A stretch of DNA of 34,316 bases from a virus. The notes beneath the pieces were generated by a model. It was not told the DNA's origin, ran no database searches, and worked only from the letters and a program-made list of their open reading frames with translations. Numbering within the stretch: position 1 is the stretch's first letter; every line of letters begins with the position of its first letter. The stretch spans positions 1 to 34,316 of the IMG/VR virus record IMGVR_UViG_3300005563_000070. One strand, written 5' to 3'. Below are positions 4,282 through 34,316 of the stretch, piece after piece. A program made the position numbers and the translations under genes.

Positions 4282-5171
4282 GACCCACCTCCGAGCTTCG
4301 GGCGCGGAAGCGCGTATAGGGGCTGGACGGTCCAACTATCCGGGGTCTCGAAAAATCCTTCGTGTTGGGTTGGATCAATCTCTGAAAGCCGCCAAAGATT
4401 GCCCCATCCCTCTTTGCGCTGATAGCGCCACGCGACTGGCTTCAGAGCTTCCTGCGGTAGATCAGCGCTGTCATCCGGCTGCTCGCGACCACATGCCGCG
4501 CAGCACAGCGGCGCGTCGCAGTAGCAACAAACGCCTCCGGCAGTTGGCTGCGGTTTGCCAAGTACGGCGAGAATGTCGCGCGTGATGTTGTAGGCCATCG
4601 TATGATCATGGGTATGTAGCCGAACCGCGCCCATGATCCTGTTGGTGGTCGGAACGCTGAAATCCAGCTCGCCCTCTCTGTCTCTTTCGGCAGAGGAGCA
4701 TTGCGCCACCTTGGCGCCAGTCTCCTTGGCGATGGCGTCAACCATGCGCTCGATGCCGGGGCGTCCCATCGCTAGGGCGGCATCTATTGCCTCGTAACTG
4801 ACGCCGTCCTCGACCGGAGCGGCCGGCGGCTGGGCGGCTAGGGCGCGGAGAACGTCATACATGGCGACGTGCACGTAAGTTCCGTCCGACGTCGTGCATC
4901 CAGCCGCGATCAGTGCTTCACGCATCCCGGCAGCTTGGGCAGGATCGATCAGGGCGTCGCGCGCGACCTCTGCCAAGCCTTCCCAATCGTCAACGTCCAT
5001 TGCGCAGGAATATTCGTAAAGAAAATCCTCCGGCCCGCGTGCGGGTTCACCCTCGTCCGGCATGATCCCCTGACCAGCAGCCCAGATAGCGAACCGCATT
5101 GCGTCGTGGACTAGGGTTGCCAAGAGGGCTCTGTCGCTCCCAGCGGAGGATGGCTGAACGGCTTCGGTCAT
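4278..5171 (-). CDS. Modular phage accessory protein with Cys-rich segment (297 aa)
   Basis: The function is unknown. The start is set at ATG 5169-5171, which has CGGAGC upstream and overlaps the previous stop as ATGA. The N-terminal ~60 residues include LVHDAMRFAIWAAGQG; the middle part is helical. A Cys cluster, CCYCDAPLCCAACG near residue 220, could bind zinc. The C-terminus (LKPVAWRYQRKEGW, then WTVQPLYALP) matches a short beta-rich module that ends many phage accessory proteins of the Ead/Ea22-like kind. The mosaic build suggests exchangeable modules rather than a single enzyme. Confidence 0.6.
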   Translation of the reverse strand: MTEAVQPSSAGSDRALLATLVHDAMRFAIWAAGQGIMPDEGEPARGPEDFLYEYSCAMDVDDWEGLAEVARDALIDPAQAAGMREALIAAGCTTSDGTYVHVAMYDVLRALAAQPPAAPVEDGVSYEAIDAALAMGRPGIERMVDAIAKETGAKVAQCSSAERDREGELDFSVPTTNRIMGAVRLHTHDHTMAYNITRDILAVLGKPQPTAGGVCCYCDAPLCCAACGREQPDDSADLPQEALKPVAWRYQRKEGWGNLWRLSEIDPTQHEGFFETPDSWTVQPLYALPRPKLGGGS

Positions 5172-6463: not shown

Positions 6464-6772
6464 TCAGCGCTCTGCGAGTGCCTTACGGGCGCGATCGAGG
6501 GCGGCGCCGAAAGTGTGCGGCGTCCGTTGTGCGATATCGTTGAAGCCAGGAGGGAGTTGGCGGGTTTGGTGGCCCTTGAAGGTTACCGTCCCAATGCCGA
6601 TCATCGTGACTTGGAAACCGTGATCCTCGAAGTACTGCCCGAGATAGCACTCGTTGCACCAGAAATCGTATTCCTTGTCGGCAGGCTGTTTCTCAGCCCA
6701 AGCGATCAAGCTCTCCAGCGAGAACGGATCGGCCTTGATGTGCGTCTTTTCCCAGTCCTTGTTGTAAAGCAT
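6464..6772 (-). CDS. Conserved phage hypothetical protein (102 aa)
   Basis: The start is set at ATG 6770-6772 (MLYNKDWEKTHIKADPFSLE), which has CAGGAG upstream. I recognise the form: a short N-terminus, then LIAWAEKQPADKEYDFWCNE with CYLGQYFEDHGFQVTMIGIG. This is a family frequent in Rhizobiales phages and prophages with no known function. Two Cys (C-NE-C) sit in the centre. It faces the rightward regulator gene tail to tail across 32 bases, with no clear terminator between them. Confidence 0.7.
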   Translation of the reverse strand: MLYNKDWEKTHIKADPFSLESLIAWAEKQPADKEYDFWCNECYLGQYFEDHGFQVTMIGIGTVTFKGHQTRQLPPGFNDIAQRTPHTFGAALDRARKALAER

Positions 6773-6801: not shown

Positions 6802-7938
6802 TTACTGAGGCGATGGGAGCGCGGAAGCCATGGCGATCCGTCCGCCGAGCCAACGCATCACGTTGACGGCCATTGAATTGCCGAGCGCCTTGTAGCGCGG
6901 GCCGTCAGCGGCCCTGGGAATTGCGGTGTATCCGCGCTTGAAGCCTTGAAGGCTTTCGCACTCGCCAGGCGTTAGGCGCCGGACAGCGTAGTCTTGGCGA
7001 ACGGCAAAGGCGACCGCTGCTACCTGACTACGAGAGACTGGCGGGGTATGGTCTTCGGAGATGCCTAGGCCATCGTTGGCGTTTCCATAACCACCGCCGT
7101 TCTGCCAGTTGAATGCGACGGGAACAACATAGCCTGCATTGACGAGCTGGCGGTTGATGCCGGACGTCCCGTGACCGTTCGGCGTTCCGCCGCCTTGCAT
7201 GGCCCCGACGACTAAGTTCTCATCAAGTGGGTTGTTCGCATGGCCTCCCGCAAGGAGCGGCTTCGCGATCAATCCGCCATCGCAGTCAAAGTCTGTGCCG
7301 AGGCCCCCACCGCCTGTAGGGCGGCTTGCAATTGTTGGGGCAACTCTTTCCCCCGCTTTCCGGCGCGGCGGAGAATCCCAGAGCAGGCTCTCGCGCTCAA
7401 ATAGTACCGCTGCGGGACGTCGCCAGTCTCCAAGATGTCCGACAACGAACACACGCCTTCGTCGCTGGGGAACTGCTCTGGCAAAGCCGTCCACTCGCAC
7501 GTACTGAGCGTCAAGCACTCGCCAGGACGCATGATACCCGAGTTCTGCCAGCCCTCCGATAAAGGCTCCAAAGTCCCGTCCTCCAGAGCTCGACAGGACG
7601 CCGGGGACGTTCTCCCAAAGGAGCCATTCGGGGCGATAGCGATCAGCGATGGCAAGATAGGTGAGGGCGAGGTTCCCCCTCGGGTCAGCCATTCCCTTGC
7701 GAAGTCCTGCGACCGAAAAACTTTGGCAGGGGGTGCCTCCAACGAGAATATCGATATCTGCATCAGGCCAATCCTTGAACTTGGTCATGTCGCCCAGGTT
7801 CGGGATCGACGGGTAATGGTGCGCCAGGACGGCGCTGGGAAACTTCTCGATCTCGGCAAAGGCAAATGGCTGCCATCCGAGCGGGTGCCAGGCAACCGTC
7901 GCCGCTTCAATGCCACTGCAAACCGAAAGGTATTTCAA
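6802..7938 (-). CDS. DNA (cytosine-5-)-methyltransferase
   Basis: A 378-residue C5-cytosine methyltransferase transferring methyl groups from S-adenosylmethionine to DNA. All landmark motifs are visible: motif I SVCSGIEAATVAW, motif IV GGTPCQSFSVAG with catalytic Cys71, motif VI ENVPG (109-113), motif VIII QRRRRVFVVG, motif IX RRLTPGECESLQGF and motif X YKALGNSMAV. The segment between VIII and IX (about residues 190-310) is the target recognition domain; it is Gly/Asn-rich and does not tell the target. The start is TTG with GAGGA seven bases upstream. No restriction partner is present, so it likely protects phage DNA or alters regulation. Confidence 0.95.
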   Translation of the reverse strand: MKYLSVCSGIEAATVAWHPLGWQPFAFAEIEKFPSAVLAHHYPSIPNLGDMTKFKDWPDADIDILVGGTPCQSFSVAGLRKGMADPRGNLALTYLAIADRYRPEWLLWENVPGVLSSSGGRDFGAFIGGLAELGYHASWRVLDAQYVRVDGFARAVPQRRRRVFVVGHLGDWRRPAAVLFERESLLWDSPPRRKAGERVAPTIASRPTGGGGLGTDFDCDGGLIAKPLLAGGHANNPLDENLVVGAMQGGGTPNGHGTSGINRQLVNAGYVVPVAFNWQNGGGYGNANDGLGISEDHTPPVSRSQVAAVAFAVRQDYAVRRLTPGECESLQGFKRGYTAIPRAADGPRYKALGNSMAVNVMRWLGGRIAMASALPSPQ

Positions 7939-14789: not shown

Positions 14790-15004
14790 GCGAGCAAACG
14801 TGGCGCATGGTCCATGACGGAAGCCCAATTCCGTATTTGTCGATCGGCCAGCTGATCGAACAAAACGGATATCGGCACATGCGTAGGGCGGCGCAATACG
14901 CTGTCGCTGGACAATTCGAATACGCTGATGGTTCGGCCGCGAAAGCCAGCCGCAATTTCCTCAAAGCTATCGAGTGGAAACGTTTCTTTGGCGAGGACGC
15001 ATAG
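14786..15004 (+). CDS. Small phage hypothetical protein (72 aa)
   Basis: A 72-residue product beginning MSEQTWRMVHDGSPIPYLSI. GGGGAGCGGGGA precedes the ATG. The protein is Tyr/Phe- and Ala-rich and likely helical (GYRHMRRAAQYAVAGQFEYA). It ends DA-TAG, and the last G of its stop codon is the first base of the next gene's GTG. The function is unknown. Confidence 0.55.
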   Translation: MSEQTWRMVHDGSPIPYLSIGQLIEQNGYRHMRRAAQYAVAGQFEYADGSAAKASRNFLKAIEWKRFFGEDA

Positions 15005-15645
15005 TGAGCGCGCCGATCCGCAACGTCCCACGCGAGGGTGAGCTTCTGGGGACAGTTCGCACGCTCGAGGACGCCGTCGACGTCTTCCGCATGATGAAGG
15101 ACCGCCTGGGCCTCACCAACCAGTTCCTCGAGGACTGCTACGGATTCGCCAAGGGCCATCCGGACAAGGTGCTCGGCCGCAGCGAGCAGAAGCGCCTCGG
15201 CTATGACACCTTCCGCCTATTCTGCGAGGTGTTTGCCGTGGAATTCCGGGTCTACGTCGATCCCGCGCAGATCAAGCGCATGGAGGCAATCTGGGAGGAG
15301 CGCGAGCGGCCCGCCTACAAGCCGGACGCCAAGCCAGGCCGCATCGCCAAGAAGATCTTGGAGGCTGCGAAGCCCATTGTTTACCGTGATGCCGCGCGCA
15401 AGGGAGGGCAAAAAAGGGCTGCTAGCTTGCCTGCTAAGCTACGATCCAAAATTGCCAGGAAGGGAGGCAAATCACGCATGAAGCGCATCAGCAAGGCCGA
15501 GCGCTCCGCAATGAGCCGAAAGGGCTGGGCGACCAGAAAGAGCCGACTCAACGCGCTCGCAACGCCCGCCGCCACTCCCGCGCTATCCGGGCCAGACGAG
15601 CGCGATCGACACTCATTCCGGCCGCTTTGCACCACGCTCGGATAA
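15004..15645 (+). CDS. Hypothetical protein with C-terminal KGG-like repeats (213 aa)
   Basis: The start is taken as GTG at 15004 (GAGGA upstream, one-base overlap with the previous stop). The N-terminal ~100 residues form a helical domain (TLEDAVDVFRMMKDRLGLTN, VLGRSEQKRLGYDTFRLFCE) with no match I recognise. The C-terminal part repeats a basic block three times: ARKGGQKRAASL, IARKGGKSR and MSRKGWATRKSR, resembling the KGG motif of stress-induced DNA-associated proteins. The last 98 bases run antisense to the leftward HTH gene, so the last ~32 residues (from NALATPAATP) may be an accident of the overlap. Confidence 0.6.
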   Translation: MSAPIRNVPREGELLGTVRTLEDAVDVFRMMKDRLGLTNQFLEDCYGFAKGHPDKVLGRSEQKRLGYDTFRLFCEVFAVEFRVYVDPAQIKRMEAIWEERERPAYKPDAKPGRIAKKILEAAKPIVYRDAARKGGQKRAASLPAKLRSKIARKGGKSRMKRISKAERSAMSRKGWATRKSRLNALATPAATPALSGPDERDRHSFRPLCTTLG

Positions 15646-15828: not shown

Positions 15829-15848
15829 TTGATTTTGCTACATATCGC

Positions 15849-15859
15849 GGTACGTTGTT
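15849..15859 (+). repeat. Motif copy E (GGTACGTTGTT, one mismatch)
   Basis: This gap upstream of the 15974 gene holds GGTACGTTGTT, one base different from the motif found at four late-region gaps. It lies between TCGCG and CGCGA, so it sits in the loop of a short possible hairpin (15845-15867). The copy is degenerate and its membership in the set is uncertain. Confidence 0.35.
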
Positions 15860-15973
15860 CAATCGCGAAAATCAGCGCTACGTTTACCCCGCGCGCCGCC
15901 CATCGCGCGCTCGCACTCTTCCTTCCGCAGGGAGCCTTGCGACCGAGGACCACTGAGCGAAGCAAGCTGAGCG

Positions 15974-16156: not shown

Positions 16157-16503
16157 TAGACCTCGTCATGCCATCAAGAGCCATAACTGTGTGACGTCAC
16201 TCACACTCAGGCGAAATGTTCCATAATGCGCGTTATGCGAACGCTAAGTCATTGATATTGTTGATGTGACGTATTCGCAGTTGGTGCACATCACACTCGC
16301 CATGCTCGACACGCATGCGCAACCGCCTGGCGAAACGGCTGAACCTGCCGAATGCGTGTGATTTCCCCGCAAAAAGACCGGGGTGGGGTGGGGGTGGGGG
16401 CAGATCGAGCCCGTGCTGGTAAATTCGAGGTCCCCCCAATTTTTCGCGCCGCTTCCTGAAAAGCTTCAATGAGTTGCGGTTCGGTCTTTGGCCGGGCGGA
16501 TGG
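16157..16503. other. Noncoding region with inverted repeats; candidate packaging site
   Basis: The longest gene-free stretch (to 16544). It holds GTGTGA-CGTCAC-TCACAC at 16189-16206, CATAA-TGCGCG-TTATG at 16222-16237, TGATGTG/CACATCA at 16262-16268 and 16287-16293, and the 8-base pair ACACGCAT/ATGCGTGT at 16309-16316 and 16352-16359. TGTGACGT occurs twice (16190 and 16265). A G-quadruplex motif follows at 16380-16400. Position just upstream of the small terminase gene is where cos or pac sites usually lie; the call is by position. No clear sigma-70 late promoter was seen. Confidence 0.45.
16380..16400 (+). other. G-quadruplex motif with single-T loops
   Basis: Four G runs of 4, 4, 5 and 5 bases are separated by single T residues. 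One-base loops predict a very stable quadruplex. It lies in the noncoding region 145 bases before the small terminase start, beside the inverted repeats. Confidence 0.7.
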
Positions 16504-16514
16504 GGTGCGTTGTT
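16504..16514 (+). repeat. Late-gap motif copy A (GGTGCGTTGTT)
   Basis: An exact copy of the 11-base motif, 30 bases before the small terminase ATG. That gene has no Shine-Dalgarno next to its start. Unlike the other copies, no strong hairpin follows; only a short GTTAAC palindrome lies between the motif and the ATG. Confidence 0.7.
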
Positions 16515-16544
16515 GGCGGCGGGCGGGTTGTTAACGTCGTTAGT

Positions 16545-17051
16545 ATGAATGAGGAGTTTGAATTCGGGCCGAAGATGCGTGCGCTGACGGAGAAGCAGCG
16601 TGCGTTTGTGATGGTGCTGGTTGAGTTTCCTGGGATGTCTGGGGCTGAAGCGGCGCGGATGGCTGGGTATTCGGATGCGTCCGAGGCTGCGAAGGTCACG
16701 GCGAGCCGGTTGAGGTCGGACCAGCGGATTATCGAGGCGATCCAGGAGCAGGCTGGGAAGAAGCTGTGGGCGATCTCGCTGAAGGCTGCGGGGCGGATTG
16801 AGCAGCTGATCGATAGCGAGGACGACGCGGTGGCGCTGAAGGCGGCCGCGGCGGTGCTGGACCGGACGGGGCTGGCGGCGCAGCAGAACATCAACATCCA
16901 CCAGACGGTATCGGATCAGTCCGGCAAGGCGATCATGGAGCGGATCCGTGCGCTGGCGCAGAAGCATGGGCTGGACGAGCGGAAGCTGCTGGGGCGGCCT
17001 GCACCGGCGCCGGTGGTCGAGGGCGAGTTCAGCGAGGTGAAGGATGGCTGA
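16545..17051 (+). CDS. terS: Terminase small subunit
   Basis: A 168-residue packaging recognition protein. The N-terminal region LTEKQRAFVMVLVEFPGMSG, then AEAARMAGYSDASEAAKVTA, is the helix-turn-helix head of the Terminase_2-like small subunits, followed by a central oligomerisation helix and a C-terminal Pro/Glu-rich tail that would contact the large subunit. The chosen ATG has no Shine-Dalgarno; an internal ATG (KMRAL, codon 11) is possible. The last 8 bases overlap the large subunit gene. It probably recognises a site in the preceding noncoding region. Confidence 0.85.
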   Translation: MNEEFEFGPKMRALTEKQRAFVMVLVEFPGMSGAEAARMAGYSDASEAAKVTASRLRSDQRIIEAIQEQAGKKLWAISLKAAGRIEQLIDSEDDAVALKAAAAVLDRTGLAAQQNINIHQTVSDQSGKAIMERIRALAQKHGLDERKLLGRPAPAPVVEGEFSEVKDG

Positions 17052-18486
17052 GCTGTCCCTATCCGAGCTCCAGGAGACGCTGGCTGGCCTCGAGGCGCTG
17101 GATTACCAGAAGACCTACCGGCAGTTTTTCCAGTTTGAGCCCTATCCGAAGCAGCGCGAGTTCCTGGATGCCGGCGCGACGAAGCGCGAGCGGCTGCTGA
17201 TCGCGGGCAACCAGAACGGCAAGACGCACACAGGGGCGTTCGAGATTGCCTGCCATCTGACCGGGCTTTACCCGGAGTGGTGGCAGGGGCGGCGGTTCGA
17301 CCGGCCCGTGAAGGTCTGGGTCTGCGGCGAGACCTCGCTGGTGGTGCGAGATGTGCAGCAGAAGAAGCTTTGCGGCGAGCCCGGTGTCGACAGCGCGTTC
17401 GGCACTGGCATGATCCCGAAGGACCTGTTCGTCGACAAGCCCTCCCTTGCGCGCGGCATCACGGACGCCTATGACACGATCCAGGTCCGGCATGTGTCGG
17501 GCGGCGTGTCGGTGGCGCGGTTCAAGTCGTACGAGCAGGGCCGAACCAAGTTCCAGGGCGAGAGCATCGACATCGGCTGGGCCGACGAGGAGCCGCCGGA
17601 GGACGTCTACGCAGAGCTCCTGACCCGCACGGTCGCAACCGGCGGCATGGTGTTCGTGACGTTCACGCCGCTCAAGGGCCGCTCGGCCGTGGTGCTGCGG
17701 TTTCTGGACGAGCCGGACGACAACCGCAGCGTGACGTCGATGACGATCGATGATGCGCTGCATATCCCTGCGGAGCAGCGGGCGGCCATCATTGCCGCCT
17801 TCCTGCCGCATGAACGCGAGGCACGCGCCCGCGGCGTGCCGACGCTGGGGTCCGGCCGCATCTTCATGGCGCTGGAGGACTCGGTCACCGAGGCGCCGAT
17901 CGAGTTCATCCCACCGCATTGGGTGAAGCTGTGGGGCATCGACTTCGGCATTGATCACCCGTTCGGCGCGGCGCTGATCTTGTGGGACCGCGACGCCGAC
18001 GTGATCCATGTGCACCACACGCACCGGGTCACGGATGCGCTGCCGATTCAGCATGCCGAGGCGCTGAAGAAGGTTGCGGCCGAGGTGCCGGTGGCCTGGC
18101 CGAACGACGGAAACGTGCGGCGCGATGACGGCAAGCCGATGGCCGACCACTACAAGCGGCACGGCCTGAAGATGCTTCCCTCGCACGCGACCTGGCCGGA
18201 TGGGTCGGTCTCGACGGAGGCCGGCATTCTCGAGATGGACGAGCGCGAGAAGTCTGGCCGGCTCAAATACGCGCGCCACCTGTCCGACCTGCTCGAGGAG
18301 CGGAGGTTCTATCACCGCAAGGATGGGCAGATCGTCAAGCTGAAGGACGACCTGATTTCGGCGCTACGCGTGGCGATCATGACCAAGCGGAGCGCGCGCG
18401 CCGTGCTGCTGGGCAGCAAGAAGGCCGCCAGCGCACCTGCTGACCGCGCCAATGGGACGGATTTCGACCTGTTCACTGGGGCATAA
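17044..18486 (+). CDS. terL: Terminase large subunit (ATPase-nuclease)
   Basis: A 480-residue packaging motor. Walker A: AGNQNGKT (54-61). Walker B: IGWADEEPP with Asp/Glu near 181-183. Coupling motif: FVTFTPLKG. The nuclease domain starts with LWGIDFGIDHPFGAAL (Asp near 300). A second acidic cluster appears further on (DLISALRVAIMTKR region). The start has GAGG and AAGG upstream and overlaps the small subunit by 8 bases. It cuts concatemeric DNA and drives it into the capsid through the portal encoded at 19263. Confidence 0.95.
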   Translation: MAELSLSELQETLAGLEALDYQKTYRQFFQFEPYPKQREFLDAGATKRERLLIAGNQNGKTHTGAFEIACHLTGLYPEWWQGRRFDRPVKVWVCGETSLVVRDVQQKKLCGEPGVDSAFGTGMIPKDLFVDKPSLARGITDAYDTIQVRHVSGGVSVARFKSYEQGRTKFQGESIDIGWADEEPPEDVYAELLTRTVATGGMVFVTFTPLKGRSAVVLRFLDEPDDNRSVTSMTIDDALHIPAEQRAAIIAAFLPHEREARARGVPTLGSGRIFMALEDSVTEAPIEFIPPHWVKLWGIDFGIDHPFGAALILWDRDADVIHVHHTHRVTDALPIQHAEALKKVAAEVPVAWPNDGNVRRDDGKPMADHYKRHGLKMLPSHATWPDGSVSTEAGILEMDEREKSGRLKYARHLSDLLEERRFYHRKDGQIVKLKDDLISALRVAIMTKRSARAVLLGSKKAASAPADRANGTDFDLFTGA

Positions 18487-18491
18487 GGCCG

Positions 18492-18502
18492 GGTGCGTTG
18501 TT
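18492..18502 (+). repeat. Late-gap motif copy B (GGTGCGTTGTT)
   Basis: An exact copy beginning 6 bases after the large terminase stop. It is followed by a small stem-loop, CCTGT-CGCTCCGA-ACAGG, and then by the terminator-like hairpin at 18566-18605. Confidence 0.7.
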
Positions 18503-18565
18503 GGCGCCTGTCGCTCCGAACAGGGTGCGAGCGCGTACCCAGGGATTCCTCCCTTATGACTTGTC

Positions 18566-18605
18566 GGCGGCGGGACCAACCCGCGGCATCCCGCCGCCCC
18601 TTTTC
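18566..18605 (+). terminator. Terminator-like hairpin after large terminase
   Basis: A perfect 10-bp stem (GGCGGCGGGA at 18566-18575 with TCCCGCCGCC at 18589-18598) with a 13-base loop, followed by CCTTTTC. It looks like an intrinsic terminator with a short T run, but only 9 bases then separate it from the ATG of the next gene, so it may be a partial terminator, an attenuator or an mRNA stabilising hairpin. Confidence 0.45.
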
Positions 18606-18614
18606 GGAGCAGAA

Positions 18615-18806
18615 ATGCCACTGAACCGCCTGCCAAATCTGACCGGCGTCGCATCCGCGGATCTCGGCCTCGGCTCCAATCTGCAGCAGCAGGTCCAGGA
18701 CGAAACCGAGGAGGAGCGCAAGAAGCGGCTGATGGGACTGTCGCCGCTGCAATCACCGGCGGCGCAGATGCTGCTTGGAGGGACAAGCGGTGTCGGATCG
18801 TTCTGA
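18615..18806 (+). CDS. Small phage structural-region protein (63 aa)
   Basis: A 63-residue product beginning MPLNRLPNLTGVASADLGLG, followed by LQQQVQDETEEERKKRLMGL and a Gly-rich end. I recognise this layout as a small protein recurring between terminase and portal genes in temperate podovirus genomes; its function is not known. CGGAGC lies seven bases before the ATG. Its end overlaps the next gene by 17 bases. Confidence 0.65.
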   Translation: MPLNRLPNLTGVASADLGLGSNLQQQVQDETEEERKKRLMGLSPLQSPAAQMLLGGTSGVGSF

Positions 18807-19263
18807 CAGCATCAATCCGCGCATGAGCGGCGAGGAGTTGCGCCAGTCCTGGCAGGGCAAGGCGCTGCGTTTTGCGGCCGATAATCCCCAGCTGCGTACC
18901 GCGCTGACGTCGCTGTTCGCCGACAACTACGACGAGACAATGCCGTTCCTGCTCCATGCGGTGAACGGCGATCCCTACATCCGCGCGCCGTTCTACTGCT
19001 CGAATCCGAAGATCGACAAGCGCGGCGCCGTGATCGCGGACATGATCCACCCCGACGGCAGCAAGTACCGCGGCGCGATCATCTTCGCTTCGGAAGATCA
19101 GATGCAGGGTGTTTTCCGCAAGCTGGCCGACCGCCTCAAGCTAGACGATGCCGAGCGCATCGACCTGTTTATCGCCGTCAGGCATTGGGTGAAGGCCGAC
19201 CTCCGGCTCGACCCGGCCATGGATCGCCGCGATCCCGACGCCAGGCGGATGGTGCTGCACTGA
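18790..19263 (+). CDS. Hypothetical head-region protein (157 aa)
   Basis: The function is unknown. The start is GTG at 18790 with GGAGG eight bases upstream (an earlier TTG at 18775 is less likely). The protein begins with a helix-rich part (LRQSWQGKALRFAADNPQLR), has a beta-rich middle (YIRAPFYCSNPKIDKRGAVI) and a basic end. It lies between terminase and portal, a place often holding small head or packaging accessory proteins. The stop TGA shares one base with the portal ATG (TGATG). Confidence 0.65.
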   Translation: MSDRSDSINPRMSGEELRQSWQGKALRFAADNPQLRTALTSLFADNYDETMPFLLHAVNGDPYIRAPFYCSNPKIDKRGAVIADMIHPDGSKYRGAIIFASEDQMQGVFRKLADRLKLDDAERIDLFIAVRHWVKADLRLDPAMDRRDPDARRMVLH

Positions 19264-20999
19264 TGGCGGACACCGCGCGCAAATATCGGATGATCTCCAG
19301 CCAGGAGCAGGCCGTGGTCGCCGAGATCATGGCCGACTTCACCGAGCGCACGATCTGGCGCAACGTGTTCGCCGGCCAGTGGGAGGAGGCGGCGCAGCTC
19401 ATCTGGCCCGAGCAGCGCAATACGTTCTTCTACGGATCATGGAATTGGCCCGGCCAGAAAAAGGCGTTCCAGCAGGTCGACGCCTCCGGCATGCTTGCGT
19501 TGCACCGCTTCGCCGCGATCGCGGATTCGCTGCTGACGCCGGCCAACAGCAAGTGGCACAACCTCGAGGCCAGCAACGAATACCTGATGAAAAACCGCCG
19601 CGTGCGGATGTATTTCGACACGGTCACGCGGTTGCTGTTCAGGTATCGGCGCAATCCGCTCGCCAACTTCCGCGGCCAGAACAATTCCAATTTCCGCTCG
19701 CTCGGCGGCTTCGGCAATGCCTGCATGCTGATCGACGCCTTCGACGGGCGCGACTATCACGGCGCGAAAGGCTTGCGCTATCGGGCCGTGCCACTCGGCG
19801 AATGCTTCTTTGCCGAGAATCATCAGGGCCAGGTCGACAGCAATATCAGGTGGTTCCGCTTTACCGCGCAGCAGGCCGCGCAGAAGTGGGGACACGAGAA
19901 CCTGCCCATCCAGATCGCCACGGCGCTGGAGAAGGGTAGCCAGCAGCCGTTCAACTTCCTGCACTGCGTCAAGCCGCGCCGCGACTACGACCGTGGCCGC
20001 TATGATGCCAAGGGCTTGCCGTTCTCATCGCATTACGTGTCAATCGAGGGAGGTTGCCTGATGCAGGAGGAGGGCGGCTATCGCACCTTCCCCTATGCGG
20101 TGAGCCGTTACGATCAGGCCCCGCGCGAGGTCTACGGCCGCGGGCCGGCGCAGATGGTGCTGCCGGCGCTAAAGACGCTGAACGCGCAAAAGTCGGTGTT
20201 CCTGAAGCAGGCCCACCGCGCCGCGGATCCCGTGCTGCTGATCGCGGACGACGGCATCATCGACCAGGTCAATCTGAAGCCCGGCGCGCAGAACAAGGGC
20301 GGCGTCAATGCCGACGGCAGGTTGATGATCCAGACCCTGCCGACCGGCGATATCCAGATCGCCAAGGAAATGATGCTCGAGGAAAAATCGATCATCGACG
20401 ATATGTTCCTGGTGTCGCTGTTCAAGGTGCTGTCCGAGCACCCGAACATGACCGCGACGCAGGTGATCGAGCTCGTCAACGAGAAGGGAATCCTGATCGC
20501 GCCGACACTCGGAAGGCAGGAGACCGAATATCTCGGCCCCATGATCGAGCGCGAAATCGATGTCCTGAACTCGCTAAGCTTGTTGCCGCCGATGCCGCCG
20601 GAGTTGCGCGAGGCGGCCGGCGAGTACCAGGTCGTCTACACCTCGCCCTTGGCGCTCGCCCAGCGCGCGCAGGAAGCTGCCGGCTTCATCCGCACCGTCG
20701 AGACCGCCAAGGAAGTGGTCAACATCACGCAGGATCCGTCCTATCTCGACCGCTTCGACTTCGATACCGCGCTGCCCGAGATCGCCGCAATCCAGAACGT
20801 GCCCGAGCACTGGATGGCCGATGATGAGATGGTCGCCAAACGCCGCAAGGCGCGCGCGCAGTCGCAGGCCCAACAGGCCCAGATCCAGGCCATGCCGGCC
20901 CAGGCCGCGATGCTCAAGGCGCAGGCCGCGGTCGCCAAGGCCCAGCCTGGCCTCGGCTCGCAGGGCCTCGGTGGCCCGCAGCAGAGGATGCCGGCATGA
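19263..20999 (+). CDS. Portal / head-tail connector protein (T7-type)
   Basis: A 578-residue portal of the Head-tail_con family (T7 gp8-like). Family-like segments: ERTIWRNVFAGQWEEAAQLI, SLLTPANSKWHNLEASNE, VTRLLFRYRRNPLANFRGQN, and the C-terminal core region with FLKQAHRAADPVLLIADD and FLVSLFKVLSEHPNMTATQV. It ends with an Ala/Gln-rich coiled tail (RAQSQAQQAQIQAMPAQAAM). Twelve copies would form the ring through which DNA passes and to which the short tail attaches. The start is set by the TGATG overlap; a longer frame upstream lacks a ribosome site. Confidence 0.93.
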   Translation: MADTARKYRMISSQEQAVVAEIMADFTERTIWRNVFAGQWEEAAQLIWPEQRNTFFYGSWNWPGQKKAFQQVDASGMLALHRFAAIADSLLTPANSKWHNLEASNEYLMKNRRVRMYFDTVTRLLFRYRRNPLANFRGQNNSNFRSLGGFGNACMLIDAFDGRDYHGAKGLRYRAVPLGECFFAENHQGQVDSNIRWFRFTAQQAAQKWGHENLPIQIATALEKGSQQPFNFLHCVKPRRDYDRGRYDAKGLPFSSHYVSIEGGCLMQEEGGYRTFPYAVSRYDQAPREVYGRGPAQMVLPALKTLNAQKSVFLKQAHRAADPVLLIADDGIIDQVNLKPGAQNKGGVNADGRLMIQTLPTGDIQIAKEMMLEEKSIIDDMFLVSLFKVLSEHPNMTATQVIELVNEKGILIAPTLGRQETEYLGPMIEREIDVLNSLSLLPPMPPELREAAGEYQVVYTSPLALAQRAQEAAGFIRTVETAKEVVNITQDPSYLDRFDFDTALPEIAAIQNVPEHWMADDEMVAKRRKARAQSQAQQAQIQAMPAQAAMLKAQAAVAKAQPGLGSQGLGGPQQRMPA

Positions 21000-21226
21000 A
21001 GATCACGGCGCTCACCGTTCACCGCGACGAGAACGCCGGAGATCCGGCACTCGTTTGCACCGTGACGTTCGAAGACGGCTCCCAGAGCTACGGCGCTCAT
21101 CCATGGCGAAACCCGCTAGGCCTCTGGGCCTCTCCTGGCGAGGCGCGCGATCCGGCAGAGATTTCGGCCGTGCTGCGTAATTTTGCGCGCGCGATCGAGG
21201 ACCACGTCAAGAAGGCCGCCGCGTGA
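20996..21226 (+). CDS. Small phage hypothetical protein (76 aa)
   Basis: A 76-residue product coupled to the portal by ATGA. The N-terminus (MKITALTVHRDENAGDPALV) reads as beta strands and the C-terminus (FARAIEDHVKKAAA) as a helix. Its location between portal and scaffold suggests a head-related accessory, but there is no specific match. Confidence 0.6.
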   Translation: MKITALTVHRDENAGDPALVCTVTFEDGSQSYGAHPWRNPLGLWASPGEARDPAEISAVLRNFARAIEDHVKKAAA

Positions 21227-21504
21227 GGGACGAAGATCAGGATCTGGTTCGCGCCTACCGGCTGTTTTTCAGCTCGGCCGACGGCATGGCCGTTGCGATG
21301 GACCTCATGAAGTTCTGCAAGTTTCGCTCGGAGATTTCGAGCGAGAAAGAGGAGGGCATGCGGCAGGTGTTCCTGCGCATTCTCCGCCTCTCCCAACTGT
21401 CCGATGAACAGCTTTTCAGCTTGTTTGCCGGTCGAATGATGATCACACCAACGGAGCCTCACGATGAGCGAGACACCTCCGGCCCTGCGGCCGGCCCCGC
21501 ATAG
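21223..21504 (+). CDS. Bbp19-like structural-region protein (93 aa)
   Basis: A 93-residue product starting at GTG, overlapping the previous stop as GTGA. The core DLVRAYRLFFSSADGMAVAM, then DLMKFCKF, matches the pattern of Bbp19-type proteins of Bordetella phage BPP-1 and other podoviruses, whose role is not established. The C-terminal residues overlap the scaffold start by 41 bases. Confidence 0.65.
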   Translation: MRDEDQDLVRAYRLFFSSADGMAVAMDLMKFCKFRSEISSEKEEGMRQVFLRILRLSQLSDEQLFSLFAGRMMITPTEPHDERDTSGPAAGPA

Positions 21505-22417
21505 TTCCCAATCCTATTTCCGATCCCCCTTTGCGCCGCGCATCCACTTCGACGAAGCTGGAGCGGGCGGCGGAGGTGCTGCTGGCGGTTCTGGCGCTGG
21601 TGATGGCGGCGGTGCTGCTGGTGCTGGCGGCGGCGCGAAGCCGTGGTTCGACGGTCTCGACGCCGAAACTCTCGGCGCATGGGACAACAAGGGCTGGAAG
21701 AAAGACGACCCCAGGGCCCTTGTCGGCGAACTCCACAAGGCATGGAAGGCAGCCGAAAAGTTCGTAGGCGTGCCGGCCGACCAGGTCCTGAAGCTGCCGA
21801 AGGATGCCAGCGACGAAGCCGGGTGGGCCTCGGTGCGCCAGCGTCTCGGCATGCCAGCCGAAGCCAAGGATTACGATTTCACCACGATCAAGCGGGCCGA
21901 TGGCAGCGCGATCGACCAGACGCTAGCCGACAGCCTGCGCGCCGCCATGCACAAGGCTGGCACGCCGAAGGATGCGGCGCCTGAGATCATCAAGGCCGTC
22001 GTCAAAAACATGGACGACGCCGCGGCCGCAACCGCAGCCACGCGCGCCAATACACTCAAGGCCGAGCGCGAAACGTTGACCAAGGAGTGGGGCAACAATT
22101 TCGAGTTCAACCGCCTGACCGCGATGCAAGGCGCCAAGCGGCTCGGCGTCGACGAGGCCACGGTGGCCAAACTCGAATCCGAGATCGGCTATGCCAAGGT
22201 CATGGAGATGTTCCGCAAGATCGGCCAAGGCACCAGCGAGGACACCTTCGTCGAGGCCGGCAGCAGCGGCAACCCGACGACGTTGAACGGCGCCAAGGCC
22301 CGCATCTCCGAACTCAAGTCAGATCCGGAGTTCACGAAGAAATACCTCGCCGGCTCCAAGAAGGAAGTCGACGAGATGAATGCGCTGATCGCGCTCGCCA
22401 ACGGGATCACGGCATGA
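21464..22417 (+). CDS. Scaffolding protein
   Basis: A 317-residue protein just before the major capsid gene. CGGAG lies seven bases before the ATG. Residues ~31-59 are a Gly/Ala linker, followed by AKPWFDGLDAETLGAWDNKG, WKKDDPRALVGELHKAWKAA, VPADQVLKLPKDASDEAGWA (T7 gp9-like/phiKMV-type scaffold pattern), then long charged helices and a helical C-terminus that would touch the capsid. The family directs head assembly and leaves the finished head. The last 4 bases overlap the next start as ATGA. Confidence 0.8.
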   Translation: MSETPPALRPAPHSSQSYFRSPFAPRIHFDEAGAGGGGAAGGSGAGDGGGAAGAGGGAKPWFDGLDAETLGAWDNKGWKKDDPRALVGELHKAWKAAEKFVGVPADQVLKLPKDASDEAGWASVRQRLGMPAEAKDYDFTTIKRADGSAIDQTLADSLRAAMHKAGTPKDAAPEIIKAVVKNMDDAAAATAATRANTLKAERETLTKEWGNNFEFNRLTAMQGAKRLGVDEATVAKLESEIGYAKVMEMFRKIGQGTSEDTFVEAGSSGNPTTLNGAKARISELKSDPEFTKKYLAGSKKEVDEMNALIALANGITA

Positions 22418-22626
22418 GCAAGGCGCCAAAGAAGGCCGATGAGATGGCGGGCCTGAACCGCGCCGACTGCTGCGCCGAATGCCGCGAAGGCTTCTGCGTC
22501 ATCAGTATGAACGAGTTCTGCCATCACCCGTTCAAGGCGTCACATCCCACGGCGACCCCGGAGGTCGTCGCGCGGGTCAATGAGGCCAGGAAGATCATCA
22601 AGCACCAGGCGATCGACCGCGAATAG
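22414..22626 (+). CDS. Small Cys-rich phage protein (70 aa)
   Basis: A 70-residue product with a Cys-rich centre: DCCAECREGFC followed by CHHPF, a plausible zinc site. The C-terminal half is a helix (VVARVNEARKIIKHQAIDRE). It sits between scaffold and major capsid; motif copy C begins 7 bases after its stop. Function unknown. Confidence 0.6.
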   Translation: MSKAPKKADEMAGLNRADCCAECREGFCVISMNEFCHHPFKASHPTATPEVVARVNEARKIIKHQAIDRE

Positions 22627-22632
22627 CACTTC

Positions 22633-22643
22633 GGTGCGTTGTT
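22633..22643 (+). repeat. Late-gap motif copy C (GGTGCGTTGTT)
   Basis: An exact copy 6 bases after the stop of the preceding gene. It is followed by a strong hairpin, GCGCGCGGG at 22653-22661 and CCCGCGTGC at 22668-22676, with a 6-base loop. About 190 bases separate the motif from the capsid ATG; they hold no gene. Confidence 0.7.
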
Positions 22644-22652
22644 GCGCTTGGG

Positions 22653-22676
22653 GCGCGCGGGCAGTTTCCCGCGTGC
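22653..22676 (+). other. Strong hairpin upstream of the major capsid gene
   Basis: A 9-bp stem with one G-U pair and the loop CAGTTT. No U-run follows, so it is not a standard terminator; it may be an RNA-processing or 5' stabilising structure for the capsid mRNA. It belongs to the motif-plus-hairpin arrangement. Confidence 0.6.
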
Positions 22677-22833
22677 CTGGACATGAAGGACCCGCAAGGA
22701 CACTCCTCCCAGGACAGACTTTGAGGCCCCCCGGAAGGGACACGGCCGGATGAATGGCCCCGCAAGGCGTCGCGAGAGCGAACCAGAGCGGCACGGCCGA
22801 CAACCCGTCGTTTCAACCCAACCAGGTAAGGCC

Positions 22834-23751
22834 ATGTCCGAGAACCTGCCGAAACTTGCAGTCGAGACCTTCTCGACCGTCCTCGCTCTGAAACTCCAGC
22901 AGCAGCAGTCGATGCTGCGCGGCCGCGTGATGGAAGGCCAGCACGTCGGCAAGCAGGCATCCCCGATCGATTACATCGGCGCGATCCAGATGAAGGCGCC
23001 GGCCGGCCGCTATGCGCCGACCCAGCCTCAGAATACCGATTTCACCCGCCGCTGGGTGATGCCGGTCGACAAGGAAGCTTTCCAGCTCATCGACAGCTAC
23101 GATAAGCTGCGCCTCCTGATGGACCCGACCTCGCAGTATTCGAGCGTCGCCGCGGCCGCCGTCGCCCGCGAATGGGATGACCGTATCATCGCCGCCGCCT
23201 TCGCCACCGCGACGGTCGGAGACAGCACCGGCATCGGAACCACCACCGAGGCGTGGTCGTCCAACTGGGAAGTCAGCGACACGTTCGCATCGTCCGCATC
23301 GTCCGGCCTGACGGTCGCGAAGATGATCGAAGCCAAGCGCGTCATGCGCAAGGCCCAGGTCCCGGTCGACACCGAGCAGCTGACGTGGGTCACGAACAGC
23401 CAGGGCGAGTCCGATCTGCTCAACCAGGTTCAGGTCGTCTCGACCGACTTCAGCGACAAGCCCATCCTCCAGGATGGCAAGGTCGTGCGCTTCATGGGCT
23501 GGGATATCGTCTACAGCGAGCGCCTGACCTCCTCGTCGAACATCCGCCAGAATATCGCCATGGTGAAATCCGGTGCCTATCTCGGCATCTGGAAAGACAC
23601 CGAGAACGATGTTTCACGCCGCAACGATCTGTCCGGCCTGCCCTGGCAGCTCGCAACCTTGATGTCATCCGGCGCAACCCGCCTCGAGCCCGGTCGGCTC
23701 CTGAAGGTCAAGTGCGCCGACACCTCGGCTGCGGCCGACGTGACCCCGTAA
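22834..23751 (+). CDS. Major capsid protein
   Basis: A 305-residue capsid protein, HK97-fold by likely family (P22/podovirus-type). Typical segments: VETFSTVLALKLQQQQSMLR near the N-terminus, RRWVMPVDKEAFQLIDSYDK, LLMDPTSQYSSVAAAAVARE, and the C-terminal domain with GWDIVYSERL and SGAYLGIWKD. The start ATG has AGGTAAGG upstream and lies 207 bases after the previous gene, after a motif copy and hairpin. It assembles hundreds of copies around the scaffold. An upstream in-frame ATG at 22750 gives a 28-residue extension, which I judge unlikely. Confidence 0.88.
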   Translation: MSENLPKLAVETFSTVLALKLQQQQSMLRGRVMEGQHVGKQASPIDYIGAIQMKAPAGRYAPTQPQNTDFTRRWVMPVDKEAFQLIDSYDKLRLLMDPTSQYSSVAAAAVAREWDDRIIAAAFATATVGDSTGIGTTTEAWSSNWEVSDTFASSASSGLTVAKMIEAKRVMRKAQVPVDTEQLTWVTNSQGESDLLNQVQVVSTDFSDKPILQDGKVVRFMGWDIVYSERLTSSSNIRQNIAMVKSGAYLGIWKDTENDVSRRNDLSGLPWQLATLMSSGATRLEPGRLLKVKCADTSAAADVTP

Positions 23752-23761
23752 GGAGGCCAGA

Positions 23762-24319
23762 ATGGGAACGTCTCACCTCAAATCCACTGCGATCACCAAT
23801 GCCGACGCAAGCCCGGTAGTCGCCAACAGTGCAGGCGCCGGCGCACCCGGCCGCCTCCACTCCATCAGCGGTTTTGTCACCGCTGTCGCCTCGGATGCCG
23901 CTGGATCGACCTATCAGCTGGTCCGCGTGCCTTCGACCGCCATCGTCAAGCAGGTGCTGTTCGCGAGCGAAGCGCAGGGCGCCGGCAAGGTCCAGCTTTC
24001 GGTCTACTACAGCGACAGCACGACCGATGGCACGCAGGCGGCGAACCAGGGCCTTGTGGTCCCAACCACCGGCGCCGGGTTCTTCTCGGACGACATCGAC
24101 TGCACGTCGGCCGTCGCCCAGGCGGACTACACCAGCAACGGCACGTCCGGCACCGGCGCCAACGGCTACACGCTCGACAAGCGCAACAAGCATCTCTGGG
24201 ATGCGCTTGGCCTGACGTCGGATCCCGGCGGCTTCTTCGACATCGTCGCCGTGGTGCACACGACTGCAATCACGACCGGCACCGGAAAACTCGGTGTCTG
24301 CGTCCATTTCGTTGCCTGA
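23762..24319 (+). CDS. Putative head decoration or minor capsid protein (185 aa)
   Basis: A 185-residue beta-rich protein directly after the capsid gene, with one of the best ribosome sites in the window (AAGGAGG before the ATG), as for an abundant virion protein. The sequence is rich in Ser, Thr, Ala and Gly, with alternating hydrophobic residues (STYQLVRVPSTAIVKQVLFA, GKVQLSVYYSDS). Position and composition suggest a decoration protein, but no family is recognised. Confidence 0.6.
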   Translation: MGTSHLKSTAITNADASPVVANSAGAGAPGRLHSISGFVTAVASDAAGSTYQLVRVPSTAIVKQVLFASEAQGAGKVQLSVYYSDSTTDGTQAANQGLVVPTTGAGFFSDDIDCTSAVAQADYTSNGTSGTGANGYTLDKRNKHLWDALGLTSDPGGFFDIVAVVHTTAITTGTGKLGVCVHFVA

Positions 24320-24321
24320 TC

Positions 24322-24645
24322 ATGGCGCTCTCTGCCGTCAAGATCACGGTCGGCCAGGCCCTCGGCGATGGCGGCGAATATGCCGTCACCGTCAAGGGCG
24401 CGGCGGTTCCTGATATCGCGACCGTCGTCACCAACAAGGCGACGCTCGTTTCTGACGGCGCCTCGCCGACGCAAGGTCACGTCAACACGCTCGACACGAA
24501 CGTGACGGCGCTCAATGCGGCGCTCGCCGGTGACGTGGTCGTGATGTGGGACGGATCGAAGGTCTCGAACCGCCGGCAACTCCGCTCGGCGCTGCGGGCC
24601 GTGTTGCATGCAATCGAGGGCGGCCACGGCGGCCTTTCGGCATAG
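24322..24645 (+). CDS. Small head/tail junction candidate (107 aa)
   Basis: A 107-residue product with alternating beta segments (LSAVKITVGQALGDGGEYAV, PDIATVVTNKATLVSDGASP) and a helical C-terminus (NRRQLRSALRAVLHAIEG). No strong Shine-Dalgarno is visible. The gene lies 2 bases after the preceding stop. It could be a structural virion protein; function unknown. Confidence 0.55.
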   Translation: MALSAVKITVGQALGDGGEYAVTVKGAAVPDIATVVTNKATLVSDGASPTQGHVNTLDTNVTALNAALAGDVVVMWDGSKVSNRRQLRSALRAVLHAIEGGHGGLSA

Positions 24646-24654
24646 GAGATTGAA

Positions 24655-24876
24655 ATGGCCGACCATTTTGTGAGTTTGAACCGGGGCGAGGAAGGATCTC
24701 TGTATTCCGACTTCACCACCGGAACGTCTTCGACCTCGACCGACCTGTTTGAGCTTCGGGTCAAGGATGGCGTGACGCCGACGCGCGTCGAGGTCATCAA
24801 GGCGCTAGAGGCTTTCGAGCGGTTCTTCTCGAACCCACAACAGGTATCGGCCGCGGGGTTTGACGTCACCGGGTAG
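24655..24876 (+). CDS. Small phage hypothetical protein (73 aa)
   Basis: A 73-residue product beginning MADHFVSLNRGEEGSLYSDF, with AGGAGATTGAA before the ATG. It is Ser/Thr-rich in the first half and helical in the second (VEVIKALEAFERFFSNPQQV). It precedes motif copy D by 1 base. Function unknown; it could be a head-tail adaptor. Confidence 0.6.
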   Translation: MADHFVSLNRGEEGSLYSDFTTGTSSTSTDLFELRVKDGVTPTRVEVIKALEAFERFFSNPQQVSAAGFDVTG

Positions 24877-24877
24877 C

Positions 24878-24888
24878 GGTGCGTTGTT
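24878..24888 (+). repeat. Late-gap motif copy D (GGTGCGTTGTT)
   Basis: An exact copy starting 1 base after the stop of the preceding gene. It is followed at once by a 7-bp stem-loop (GGTCCGG at 24896-24902 and CCGGACC at 24913-24919) that ends at the ATG of the tail tubular gene. That gene has no visible Shine-Dalgarno. Confidence 0.7.
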
Positions 24889-24895
24889 TCCATGA

Positions 24896-24919
24896 GGTCC
24901 GGGCGGCACCGTCCGGACC
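24896..24919 (+). other. Hairpin abutting the tail tubular A start codon
   Basis: A perfect 7-bp stem with a 10-base loop ends one base before the ATG at 24920. No purine-rich ribosome site is present around it, so the structure may control translation or mark an RNA end. Confidence 0.55.
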
Positions 24920-31531: not shown

Positions 31532-34316
31532 TGGCCGACGATTGGGAGAAGGTCTCGACCGGCCCGGAAGACGATTGGGCCCCGGTGAAGGCTGCCGAGC
31601 GGCCTGCGCCCGTGGTCGGCGAGGCTTTGCCAGAGGCGTTCATGGCCCGCGTGAGCACCGGCCAGGCGCTGGACCGCGTGATAGTGGCGGCCGGCAAAGG
31701 CGCGGCAGAAGGCGCTGGCACGGGCACGCCGACGGGCTTTGAGGACGACGTTTTGGCCCATTTGATCGAGAAGGGGGTTTTCCACGACCCGTCGACGGGC
31801 CGAGGTGGGCCCCTCCAGATGGCGAACGAGGCCGTCATGATCCCGGCGGCCAAGCTCTGGGAGACCATCAACCGCGGGTTCTCCGGGGCGCTCCACGGTG
31901 CCGGCGGAGCGCTGGAGCAGCTGGTCACCGAGTTTGGCGGCTCGTCCGGTGAGGCGGCTCGCGCCCGTCGCGAGGTCATCAATCTCGGCAATTGGGCCAT
32001 GATCGAGTCCGGCATGGGCCGGTTCTCGCGGCCGACTGTGGAAAGCCTGTCCCGCGATGCGGTGAATTCCGAGGCACCGAAGCAGATCATGGACCGGCCT
32101 GTCGGCGGCCTGCCGACGCCGGAGGACTTCACCACGGCCGGCAAGGTGATGGACAGCCCGCACGCCGAGGTCAACCTGCGCCGGATGTGGTCCGAGGACG
32201 GCATCCACCCGGCCGAGGCCGTGCACGATGCGGAGGCCGACGCCTTCGTGAAGCACGAGATCACGGCGCCGCGGGAGGAGATCAAGCCCGACCCTGAGAC
32301 CGAGGCTGTGCTCGAGGAGACCGGCGGCAAGCCCGGCAGCTTGTCTGCGGCGGTCACTGAGCCCGGTGACGTTCCGCTGGACGTGCAGCCAGCCCGGCCG
32401 CCCGGAAGCCTCACGGCGGCCGCGACAGCCGCCCTGGACAAGCTGTTCGACGTCGGCCGGGACGTGCAGATGAAGCTGGCCCCGATGGCGCGCGGCTCCG
32501 TCGAGAGCATGGCGACCGTCAAGGACTACATGAACGCGATGCGGCGCAATGCCTGGGATTCGTCCCGGATTGATACCGATCTGGCGAAGCGGTTCGACCC
32601 GGCCCAGCGGGAGCGCATGGCGCGCGCGATGGAGGAGGAGAGCCTGTCGCTGCGGCTGGGCGAGCCGGAGAGCGCTCGCGCGCACCAGGGTCTCGCCACA
32701 CTGGAGCCAGAGGAGCGGGCCGCGGTGCTGGAGCTCGACCGCGCCCAGCAACTGGCGTGGCTCCGCGTACGCGACGCCGGGGTGGTGGAGGGCGACGGTA
32801 TTCCGATGCACTTCCCGCGCATGGCGATCGGCGCCAAGGGTGACACCGAGATCGGCAAGCCGCCGTCGCTGACCCAGATGTACGGCATCCGCAAGAACAG
32901 CCCGTACACCCGGCAGCGGCAGTACATGGAGGCCGAGGAGACCGAGCGCGCGCTCAAGGCCAAATACGGCGATCAGGCGACGATCGCCTGGGACATCCGG
33001 GCGGTGAACCTCGCGACCAAGATGCTCGAGGATGCGACCGCCGGCCGGTCGCTCATCAACAACATCGAGGAGGTCGGCAAGCGCACGGGTGACGAGACGG
33101 TCGCGGTTGGCTTCAAGCCCGGCGACGGCTGGTTCACGGTTGACCATCCGGCCTTCCAGAAATGGCGGCCGAAGCTGGAAGACGGCGGCGTAGTCAAGGA
33201 CGAGGCCGGTAATCCGGTGTTCGAATCCGTCCCGATTTATGTCCGCGGCGATTTCGAGGGTCCGATCCGGGCCGCGCTGTGGGGCAAATCCGGCGAAGCC
33301 TATCAGGCGATGATGGCGCTCAAGGGCAAAACCATGGGCCTGATCATGTACTCGCCCATGATCCATAATGGCGTGGAGTGGGGACGTGCAGTCTTCGCCA
33401 TGCCGGGCAAGGTTGCCACGTTCAAGGTCTACTTTGAGGGCAACCGGGCAAAGCACGACATCGGGACAATGCACGAGGCAATCTCTGCCGGGTTGGTGCC
33501 GATCGGCAAGCGGTTCTTTAATCAGGACATCGACTCCATTATGGAGGCACCAGACCTGACGCCGGGCCGCTCCCTGACGGCCAAAGCGTTGGCTTTGGTA
33601 CCGGGCCTGTTCGATGAAGGTGCCGGCGTTGCCGTCAAGCGCGCGATCGATAAGGCCGGCGATTTCTGGCACAACACCCTGCTTTGGGATCGCGTCGCTG
33701 ACCTTCAAGCTGGACTCTATGTCAATTTCCGCGACAGCCTTCTGGCTAAAGGGACGGATCGCGACGTCGCAACAAAGTTGGCGGCTCATTGGGCCAATCG
33801 ATATGCTGGCGCTTTGCCGAAAGAGGCGATGAGCGAGGCGGCAACAAAGTGGGCAAACGCCCTAACCTTTTCTCGCTCATTTACGTTTGGCAACATGGGC
33901 GTCTTGAAGGATACGCTGACGGGCCTGCCAAAGGATGTGCTGGCACAGATCGAGCGCGATGCCGGTTTTAAGGCCGGATCGATTGAGGCTGGCATTGAAG
34001 CAGCAAACGCCGCTGCGAGCGAATCCAAGGCTATGGCGAGCAGGGCGGCAGCCGGGACTGCACTTAGGAAATCGATTTCTGTAGTCGTTTTGGACGTCGT
34101 CGGCATGTACGTCATGAACTCTCTGCTGCAGAGCATGGCGAATGTGATGAGCGGCGATCACACGATCGATCAAGAGTTGCACGGATATTCCCTCCGCCTA
34201 AAGGAGGCCCTAAGCGAGCGCGCTGAGAATCCGATGAAGCTTTTGCAGCCGTTCGATTTTCTGGAGCATGTTAGTTCGACCTCAGAAAATGAGCCAGGAA
34301 AGCGGGATCGCGTTCG
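31531..34316 (+). CDS. Very large internal virion/ejection protein, partial
   Basis: The gene starts at ATG 31531 (shared base with the preceding stop) and stays open to the window end: at least 928 codons. The N-terminus is acidic (MADDWEKVSTGPEDDWAPVK). The centre has long charged helices and a W/H-rich region (SPMIHNGVEWGRAVFAMPGK, RRNAWDSSRIDTDLAKRFDP). Near residue 855 there is a hydrophobic stretch (VVVLDVVGMYVMNSLLQSMA). Size and position suit the large ejection protein that spans the envelope (T7 gp16-like); no lytic transglycosylase motif was seen in this part. Codon use becomes noticeably less GC-rich after about 33400. Confidence 0.65.
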   Translation, partial: MADDWEKVSTGPEDDWAPVKAAERPAPVVGEALPEAFMARVSTGQALDRVIVAAGKGAAEGAGTGTPTGFEDDVLAHLIEKGVFHDPSTGRGGPLQMANEAVMIPAAKLWETINRGFSGALHGAGGALEQLVTEFGGSSGEAARARREVINLGNWAMIESGMGRFSRPTVESLSRDAVNSEAPKQIMDRPVGGLPTPEDFTTAGKVMDSPHAEVNLRRMWSEDGIHPAEAVHDAEADAFVKHEITAPREEIKPDPETEAVLEETGGKPGSLSAAVTEPGDVPLDVQPARPPGSLTAAATAALDKLFDVGRDVQMKLAPMARGSVESMATVKDYMNAMRRNAWDSSRIDTDLAKRFDPAQRERMARAMEEESLSLRLGEPESARAHQGLATLEPEERAAVLELDRAQQLAWLRVRDAGVVEGDGIPMHFPRMAIGAKGDTEIGKPPSLTQMYGIRKNSPYTRQRQYMEAEETERALKAKYGDQATIAWDIRAVNLATKMLEDATAGRSLINNIEEVGKRTGDETVAVGFKPGDGWFTVDHPAFQKWRPKLEDGGVVKDEAGNPVFESVPIYVRGDFEGPIRAALWGKSGEAYQAMMALKGKTMGLIMYSPMIHNGVEWGRAVFAMPGKVATFKVYFEGNRAKHDIGTMHEAISAGLVPIGKRFFNQDIDSIMEAPDLTPGRSLTAKALALVPGLFDEGAGVAVKRAIDKAGDFWHNTLLWDRVADLQAGLYVNFRDSLLAKGTDRDVATKLAAHWANRYAGALPKEAMSEAATKWANALTFSRSFTFGNMGVLKDTLTGLPKDVLAQIERDAGFKAGSIEAGIEAANAAASESKAMASRAAAGTALRKSISVVVLDVVGMYVMNSLLQSMANVMSGDHTIDQELHGYSLRLKEALSERAENPMKLLQPFDFLEHVSSTSENEPGKRDRV

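Follow-up and report, generated by a model that had tools for sequence, protein, structure and literature searches.

The late genes of the phage represented by the window (the whole stretch of DNA analyzed, 34,316 bases) carry a short motif in their gaps, and this raises the question of what function the motif serves. A preliminary description had proposed three readings: a phage-specific late promoter element, an antitermination site composed of a boxA-like sequence and a hairpin, or an RNA-processing signal. Among these options, the first is supported by the analysis reported here. As judged from sequence comparison, the motif very probably forms the upstream part (-44 to -31) of a set of late promoters.

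Exact copies of GGTGCGTTGTT are located at positions 16504, 18492, 22633 and 24878 (hereafter A to D) and a near copy, GGTACGTTGTT, at 15849, all on the plus strand. An exact-match scan of the whole window bore out these previously reported positions, and no copy beyond these five was found in its 34,316 bases. When scored with a PWM trained without the window, the five sites occupied the top plus-strand ranks (17.4-31.1 bits), versus 14.9 for the next-best plus-strand position and maxima of 4.9-12.4 in shuffled windows. The short distances from preceding stop codons were likewise confirmed, at 5, 6 and 1 bases for B, C and D, respectively. The conserved core of the motif is GTGCGTTG, and the full GGTGCGTTGTT is the version proper to the window phage. 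This phage is of the temperate type, with a tyrosine integrase, a CI-like repressor HTH and a C-5 cytosine methylase, the gene for the latter being located at 6802-7938 on the minus strand, in the early region.

The distribution of the motif was analyzed further in a set of 97 non-redundant contigs, comprising the window and related uncultured phages. The discovery set was derived from a capsid-protein search of viral contigs, which yielded 52 related loci (near-duplicates were removed, and the window was added for the counts), and the held-out set from a portal-based search, which yielded 52 non-redundant contigs. In the discovery set together with the window, GTGCGTTG was detected 84 times in the forward and 4 times in the reverse orientation (shuffle mean, 13.6), and the bias was replicated in the 52 held-out contigs (97 forward, 8 reverse). 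Across all 97 contigs the core was almost confined to the late strand and occurred mostly in gaps, with five late-strand sites in the window and several in each relative. Four gaps share the motif across many phages, i.e., those preceding the TerS-like gene, the capsid gene and a gene encoding 381 aa, and the one that follows the TerL-like gene. Two outcomes had been named in advance as arguing against a role for the motif, namely equal frequency inside genes and absence from these gaps in related phages. Neither was observed: among 11 contigs, 58 forward copies were located in gaps versus 6 inside genes, and the motif is kept at the same gaps in the relatives. The gap at D and the motif go together, and in several motif-less relatives the 381-aa gene directly adjoins the preceding gene. 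At the capsid gap of the motif-less loci L037, L041, L049, L052 and L056, sigma-70-like promoters were read by eye, consisting of TTGCAA or TTGACA with TAAGGT, TAGAGT, TATATA and similar hexamers. The nearest annotated phages, most of which are HTVC010P-type Pelagibacter phages, share at most 41% capsid identity. Scans of genome contigs revealed no sequenced hosts or prophages, and literature searches on the motif or on leaderless late promoters of such phages returned nothing relevant.

Downstream of the core, a second information peak was apparent in both the discovery and the held-out sets, with C/T and A at +28/29 and T at +33. The corresponding hexamer, YANNNT, was found 19-21 nt past the core in 133 of 200 sites (20 nt in 79, 19 nt in 35 and 21 nt in 19), versus 4-6 at upstream control spacings; about one-third of the sites lacked it at the expected spacing. 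The combined pattern, TTGNNN-N16-18-YANNNT, has a sigma-70-type layout, in which the TTG of the core takes the place of the -35, followed by a spacer of 16-18 bp and a -10 in which positions -11 and -7 are A and T, respectively. At -12, the commonest base is C, not T, and none of the five window sites was recovered by a consensus promoter scan for good TTGACA/TATAAT matches. The preliminary description had found no consistent -10 box, but the hexamers in question (Table 1) had been overlooked. Its view that the motif is not an ordinary sigma-70 promoter stands in part: the spacing is sigma-70-like, but the -10 matches poorly and the phage-specific part lies in the extended -35 region. Several predicted late promoters share one common activator-type site. 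Intrinsic terminators were detected at most 60 nt upstream of 11 out of 199 sites (versus 14 of 3000 random positions) and, where present, they sit just before the box. The hairpin described after some copies is not a general companion of the motif. No conserved RNA hairpin of the nut/put kind was found beside the box, since arms around the -10 were barely above shuffles at leaderless sites and in mild excess at sites with leaders.

The position of the start codons is also informative. In 85 of 198 sites, the ATG of an ORF of at least 50 aa is located 30-36 nt past the core, with a sharp peak at 31-33 nt (expected, 1.7 per position). The ATG is thereby placed 6-8 nt beyond the -10, where transcription would be expected to start. 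An SD-like tetramer was present at only 1 of 84 such starts, the corresponding figures being 90 of 188 for other genes of the family and 8.5% for random windows. Many of the late promoters thus seem to direct transcription from the first codon itself, without a ribosome-binding site. In the window, transcription from A and D would begin at the ATG or within about one base of it, giving predicted leaderless mRNAs, while the transcripts from B and C are predicted to carry untranslated leaders. The genes after A and D had been reported to lack a Shine-Dalgarno sequence; this is correct, is general across the family sites, and would follow from their predicted leaderless starts. Such use of leaderless mRNA, as predicted here for phage structural gene clusters, would be unusually systematic. 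Additional sites outside the four structural gaps were observed at G003:2732 and 5656, G006:10941, 11259 and 14034, and G008:344, 2952 and 5778 (late-strand orientation), and several of these have an ATG at the leaderless distance.

The sites of a given phage resemble one another beyond the core. Within-phage identity was raised at -4 to -1 (z 4.6-8.8) and at +8 and +9 (z 12.9 and 13.3), and no comparable rise was detected at the other spacer or -10 positions (z at most 2.7). This pattern fits recognition of 14 bp over the -35 by a phage-specific protein, with the -10 left to a common, host-type polymerase. The versions of the box differ from phage to phage, and include GTGCGTTGTT, GTGCGTTGC, GTACGTTG and ATACGTTG.

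The late promoters are probably switched on by a small DNA-binding protein of the phage itself, and the best candidate is the product of the window gene at 14974-15645, a short way upstream of them. Among the protein clusters of 19 contigs, its cluster (cluster 22) was present in 12 of 13 contigs with the motif, the thirteenth of which begins downstream of the expected place of the gene, and in none of the 6 without it; it was the only cluster present in at least 8 motif-bearing contigs yet absent from every motif-less one. These co-occurrences rest on few independent events, because the two kinds of contig are largely separate clades. The regulator profile also matched the held-out motif-bearing loci L120, L123, L131, L133, L146 and L173. 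The gene is located 0.6-3 kb upstream of the TerS-like gene, in a position like that of lambda Q. The predicted structure contains an XRE/HipB-like domain (pLDDT ~90 at residues 31-110) with an XRE-type HTH fold; the predicted model matched HipB with a Z score of 9.1 over 71 residues at 1.9 A, and C.Esp1396I chains were also among its structural matches (Z 7.7). By sequence, no Pfam HTH model matched the candidate, and neither Pfam nor PHROG offers a family name for it. The regulator family has diverged widely, its members being 20-32% identical to the window copy, and a viral contig search with one regulator as the query retrieved its own source contig only. In L105, whose portal is 81% identical to that of the window, the regulator is divergent, the box version is GTGTGTTG, and four copies of CGGTGTGTTG (at 6769, 8813, 13419 and 17967) replace the usual motif. 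Short repeats were also seen in L105, GGCGAAACG at 6569-6591 and ACCGTTACG at 2375-2533. Two loci depart from the pairing: L135 has the motif and no regulator detectable within 6 kb upstream, and L163 has a member of the regulator family (4347-4895) and no recognizable motif copy, a check by eye for a changed motif having given no clear answer. L119 is a truncated contig, for which no call on the pairing was made.

Table 1. Predicted late promoters of the window and the genes and leader associated with them.
Feature	Position	Strand	Remarks
Gene for the candidate late activator (223 aa; HTH domain of XRE/HipB type, with a basic, helical C-terminal part)	14974..15645	+	
Promoter-0 box (near copy GGTACGTTGTT)	15846..15859	+	Predicted -10 TACGTT, 15879-15884; PWM 17.4; spacing 21; after regulator gene
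Promoter A box	16501..16514	+	Predicted -10 TAACGT, 16532-16537; PWM 23.5; spacing 19; ATG of TerS-like gene at 16545, 32 nt past core; predicted leaderless
Small-terminase-like gene, first of transcript A	16545..17051	+	Named by position and conservation
Large-terminase-like gene	17044..18486	+	Named by position and conservation
Promoter B box, after TerL-like stop	18489..18502	+	Predicted -10 CAGGGT, 18521-18526; PWM 26.2; predicted leader
Promoter C box	22630..22643	+	Predicted -10 CAGTTT, 22662-22667; PWM 31.1; predicted leader of ~160 nt to capsid gene
Structured capsid-gene leader, bulged GNRA-type hairpin units, 3' of promoter C	22690..22833	+	
Major capsid protein gene, first of transcript C	22834..23751	+	Homologous to annotated HTVC010P-type phage major capsid proteins
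Promoter D box	24875..24888	+	Predicted -10 CACCGT, 24907-24912; PWM 26.4; ATG at 24920, 33 nt past core; predicted leaderless
First gene past D, 381 aa	24920..26065	+	Predicted leaderless

From these observations we infer that transcription starts at the sites and that the candidate protein binds the box as an activator, not as a repressor. The promoters would each consist of a phage-specific flank, GTGCGTTG and two further phage-specific bases, with the TTG at -35, a spacer of 16-18 bp and a degenerate YANNNT -10. Bound to the 14-bp box that covers the -35, the XRE-type HTH protein would assist the host RNA polymerase, with its sigma of housekeeping type, in using the poor -10, in the manner of a recruiting or stabilizing activator of class-II type. 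The late units opened would be those for packaging (A), the post-terminase genes (B), the capsid (C) and the 381-aa structural gene (D), together with further units in longer relatives. Activation by an XRE-type phage protein is the most likely basis for late promoters that combine such a box with a poor -10.

The other explanations of the motif differ in which of these features they leave without a role. In an antitermination system, the box would be bound as RNA (nut/put) or as DNA (Q-like), and polymerase that started upstream would pass the late terminators. The regulator gene in the lambda Q position and the intrinsic terminators beside some sites would suit such a system, which is nevertheless unlikely. 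Against the nut/put form stand the unconserved hairpin, the fixed spacing of the -10, the fixed register of the ATG at the expected start without a Shine-Dalgarno sequence, and the terminators, which precede the box rather than follow it. Lambda Q binds a DNA site embedded in a promoter, and Q-like action could therefore add to promoter function; an extra antitermination step is possible and unneeded. The same fixed spacing, ATG position, preceding terminators and unconserved hairpin disfavor an RNA-processing or mRNA-stability signal within a polycistronic late transcript. The location of the sites between genes of a co-oriented operon is compatible with such a signal, but most sites lack conserved RNA structure, a terminator directly precedes some of them, and the -10-like block and the ATG register would have no role, all of which makes this reading barely credible.

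Two further alternatives accept that the sites are promoters. The extended, strongly conserved upstream block and the weak -10 could indicate the -35 of a phage-encoded sigma factor or the promoter of a phage RNA polymerase. This is highly improbable, given that no Sigma70_r2 or r4_2 match was found in ten contigs (positive controls worked), that no single-subunit RNAP was matched, in a search whose positive control stayed silent, and that the -10 bases are not phage-specific. It is somewhat less improbable, although still doubtful, that the promoters are as described and the XRE protein is a repressor, or that activation is due to some other protein, of phage or host origin. Repression is a frequent role of XRE proteins, the co-occurrence is confounded by clade, and L135 and L163 do not fit the pairing. 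Under a shared repressor, however, good consensus -10s would be expected, and those found here are poor; as for another activator, no other cluster showed the distribution of cluster 22, and in L105 the motif and the regulator changed together.

A separate feature was observed in the capsid-gene leader, where tandem bulged hairpins with a GNRA-type tetraloop (unit approximately GGYCCCCGCAAGGACAAGRCC) occur in the window and in relatives, e.g., at G008 32550-32590 (late-strand orientation) and L173 13093-13129. The strict pattern was matched 101 times in the forward and never in the reverse orientation (overlapping matches counted), and the outer stem shows compensatory changes. These hairpins are present in motif-less relatives as well. 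Rfam gave no match anywhere in the window, the capsid leader included.

The motif family very probably represents late promoters of uncultured soil phages. It allows promoters to be mapped in the many uncultured podoviruses that are distant relatives of the HTVC010P group and names a candidate regulator, while the paired variants of protein and site (GTGCGTTGTT, GTGCGTTGC, GTACGTTG, ATACGTTG and GTGTGTTG) constitute a natural series on how a small HTH protein reads DNA. There is a reasonable likelihood that the system constitutes an undescribed class of late control in widespread uncultured phages, in which a fast-evolving XRE-type activator and a 14-bp -35 box co-evolve phage by phage and many packaging and tail mRNAs are leaderless.

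Among the known systems, lambda Q is similar in that the regulator gene of a temperate phage is located between the replication and terminase genes; in contrast to the single pR' of lambda, several promoters are predicted here, with no sign of antitermination. The 11 late promoters of phage P1 share a conserved inverted repeat of 9 bp as the Lpa site, and P1 thus also combines many dispersed late promoters, one short activator site and the host polymerase (PMC10695390). Unlike P1, the phages described here are uncultured podoviruses with an asymmetric 14-bp box over the -35, an XRE-type candidate and frequent predicted leaderless starts. In phage Mu, the C protein bound next to the -35 drives the late promoters lys, I, P and mom, which have non-consensus elements (PMC4461284). 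Several non-consensus late promoters with an activator-type site by the -35 are common to both, the activator here being a candidate; the site itself differs, and Mu has four such promoters. We know of no leaderless rule for the Mu late promoters. The C proteins of restriction-modification systems already offer an example of XRE-type activation combined with a leaderless transcript (PMC2997769). C.PvuII, C.Esp1396I and C.AhdI are XRE-fold activators that act at C boxes by the promoter, and the candidate is predicted to share their fold. C proteins, however, act on their own operon, whereas the window candidate is larger, has a basic C-terminal part, and would have several phage late units as its targets.
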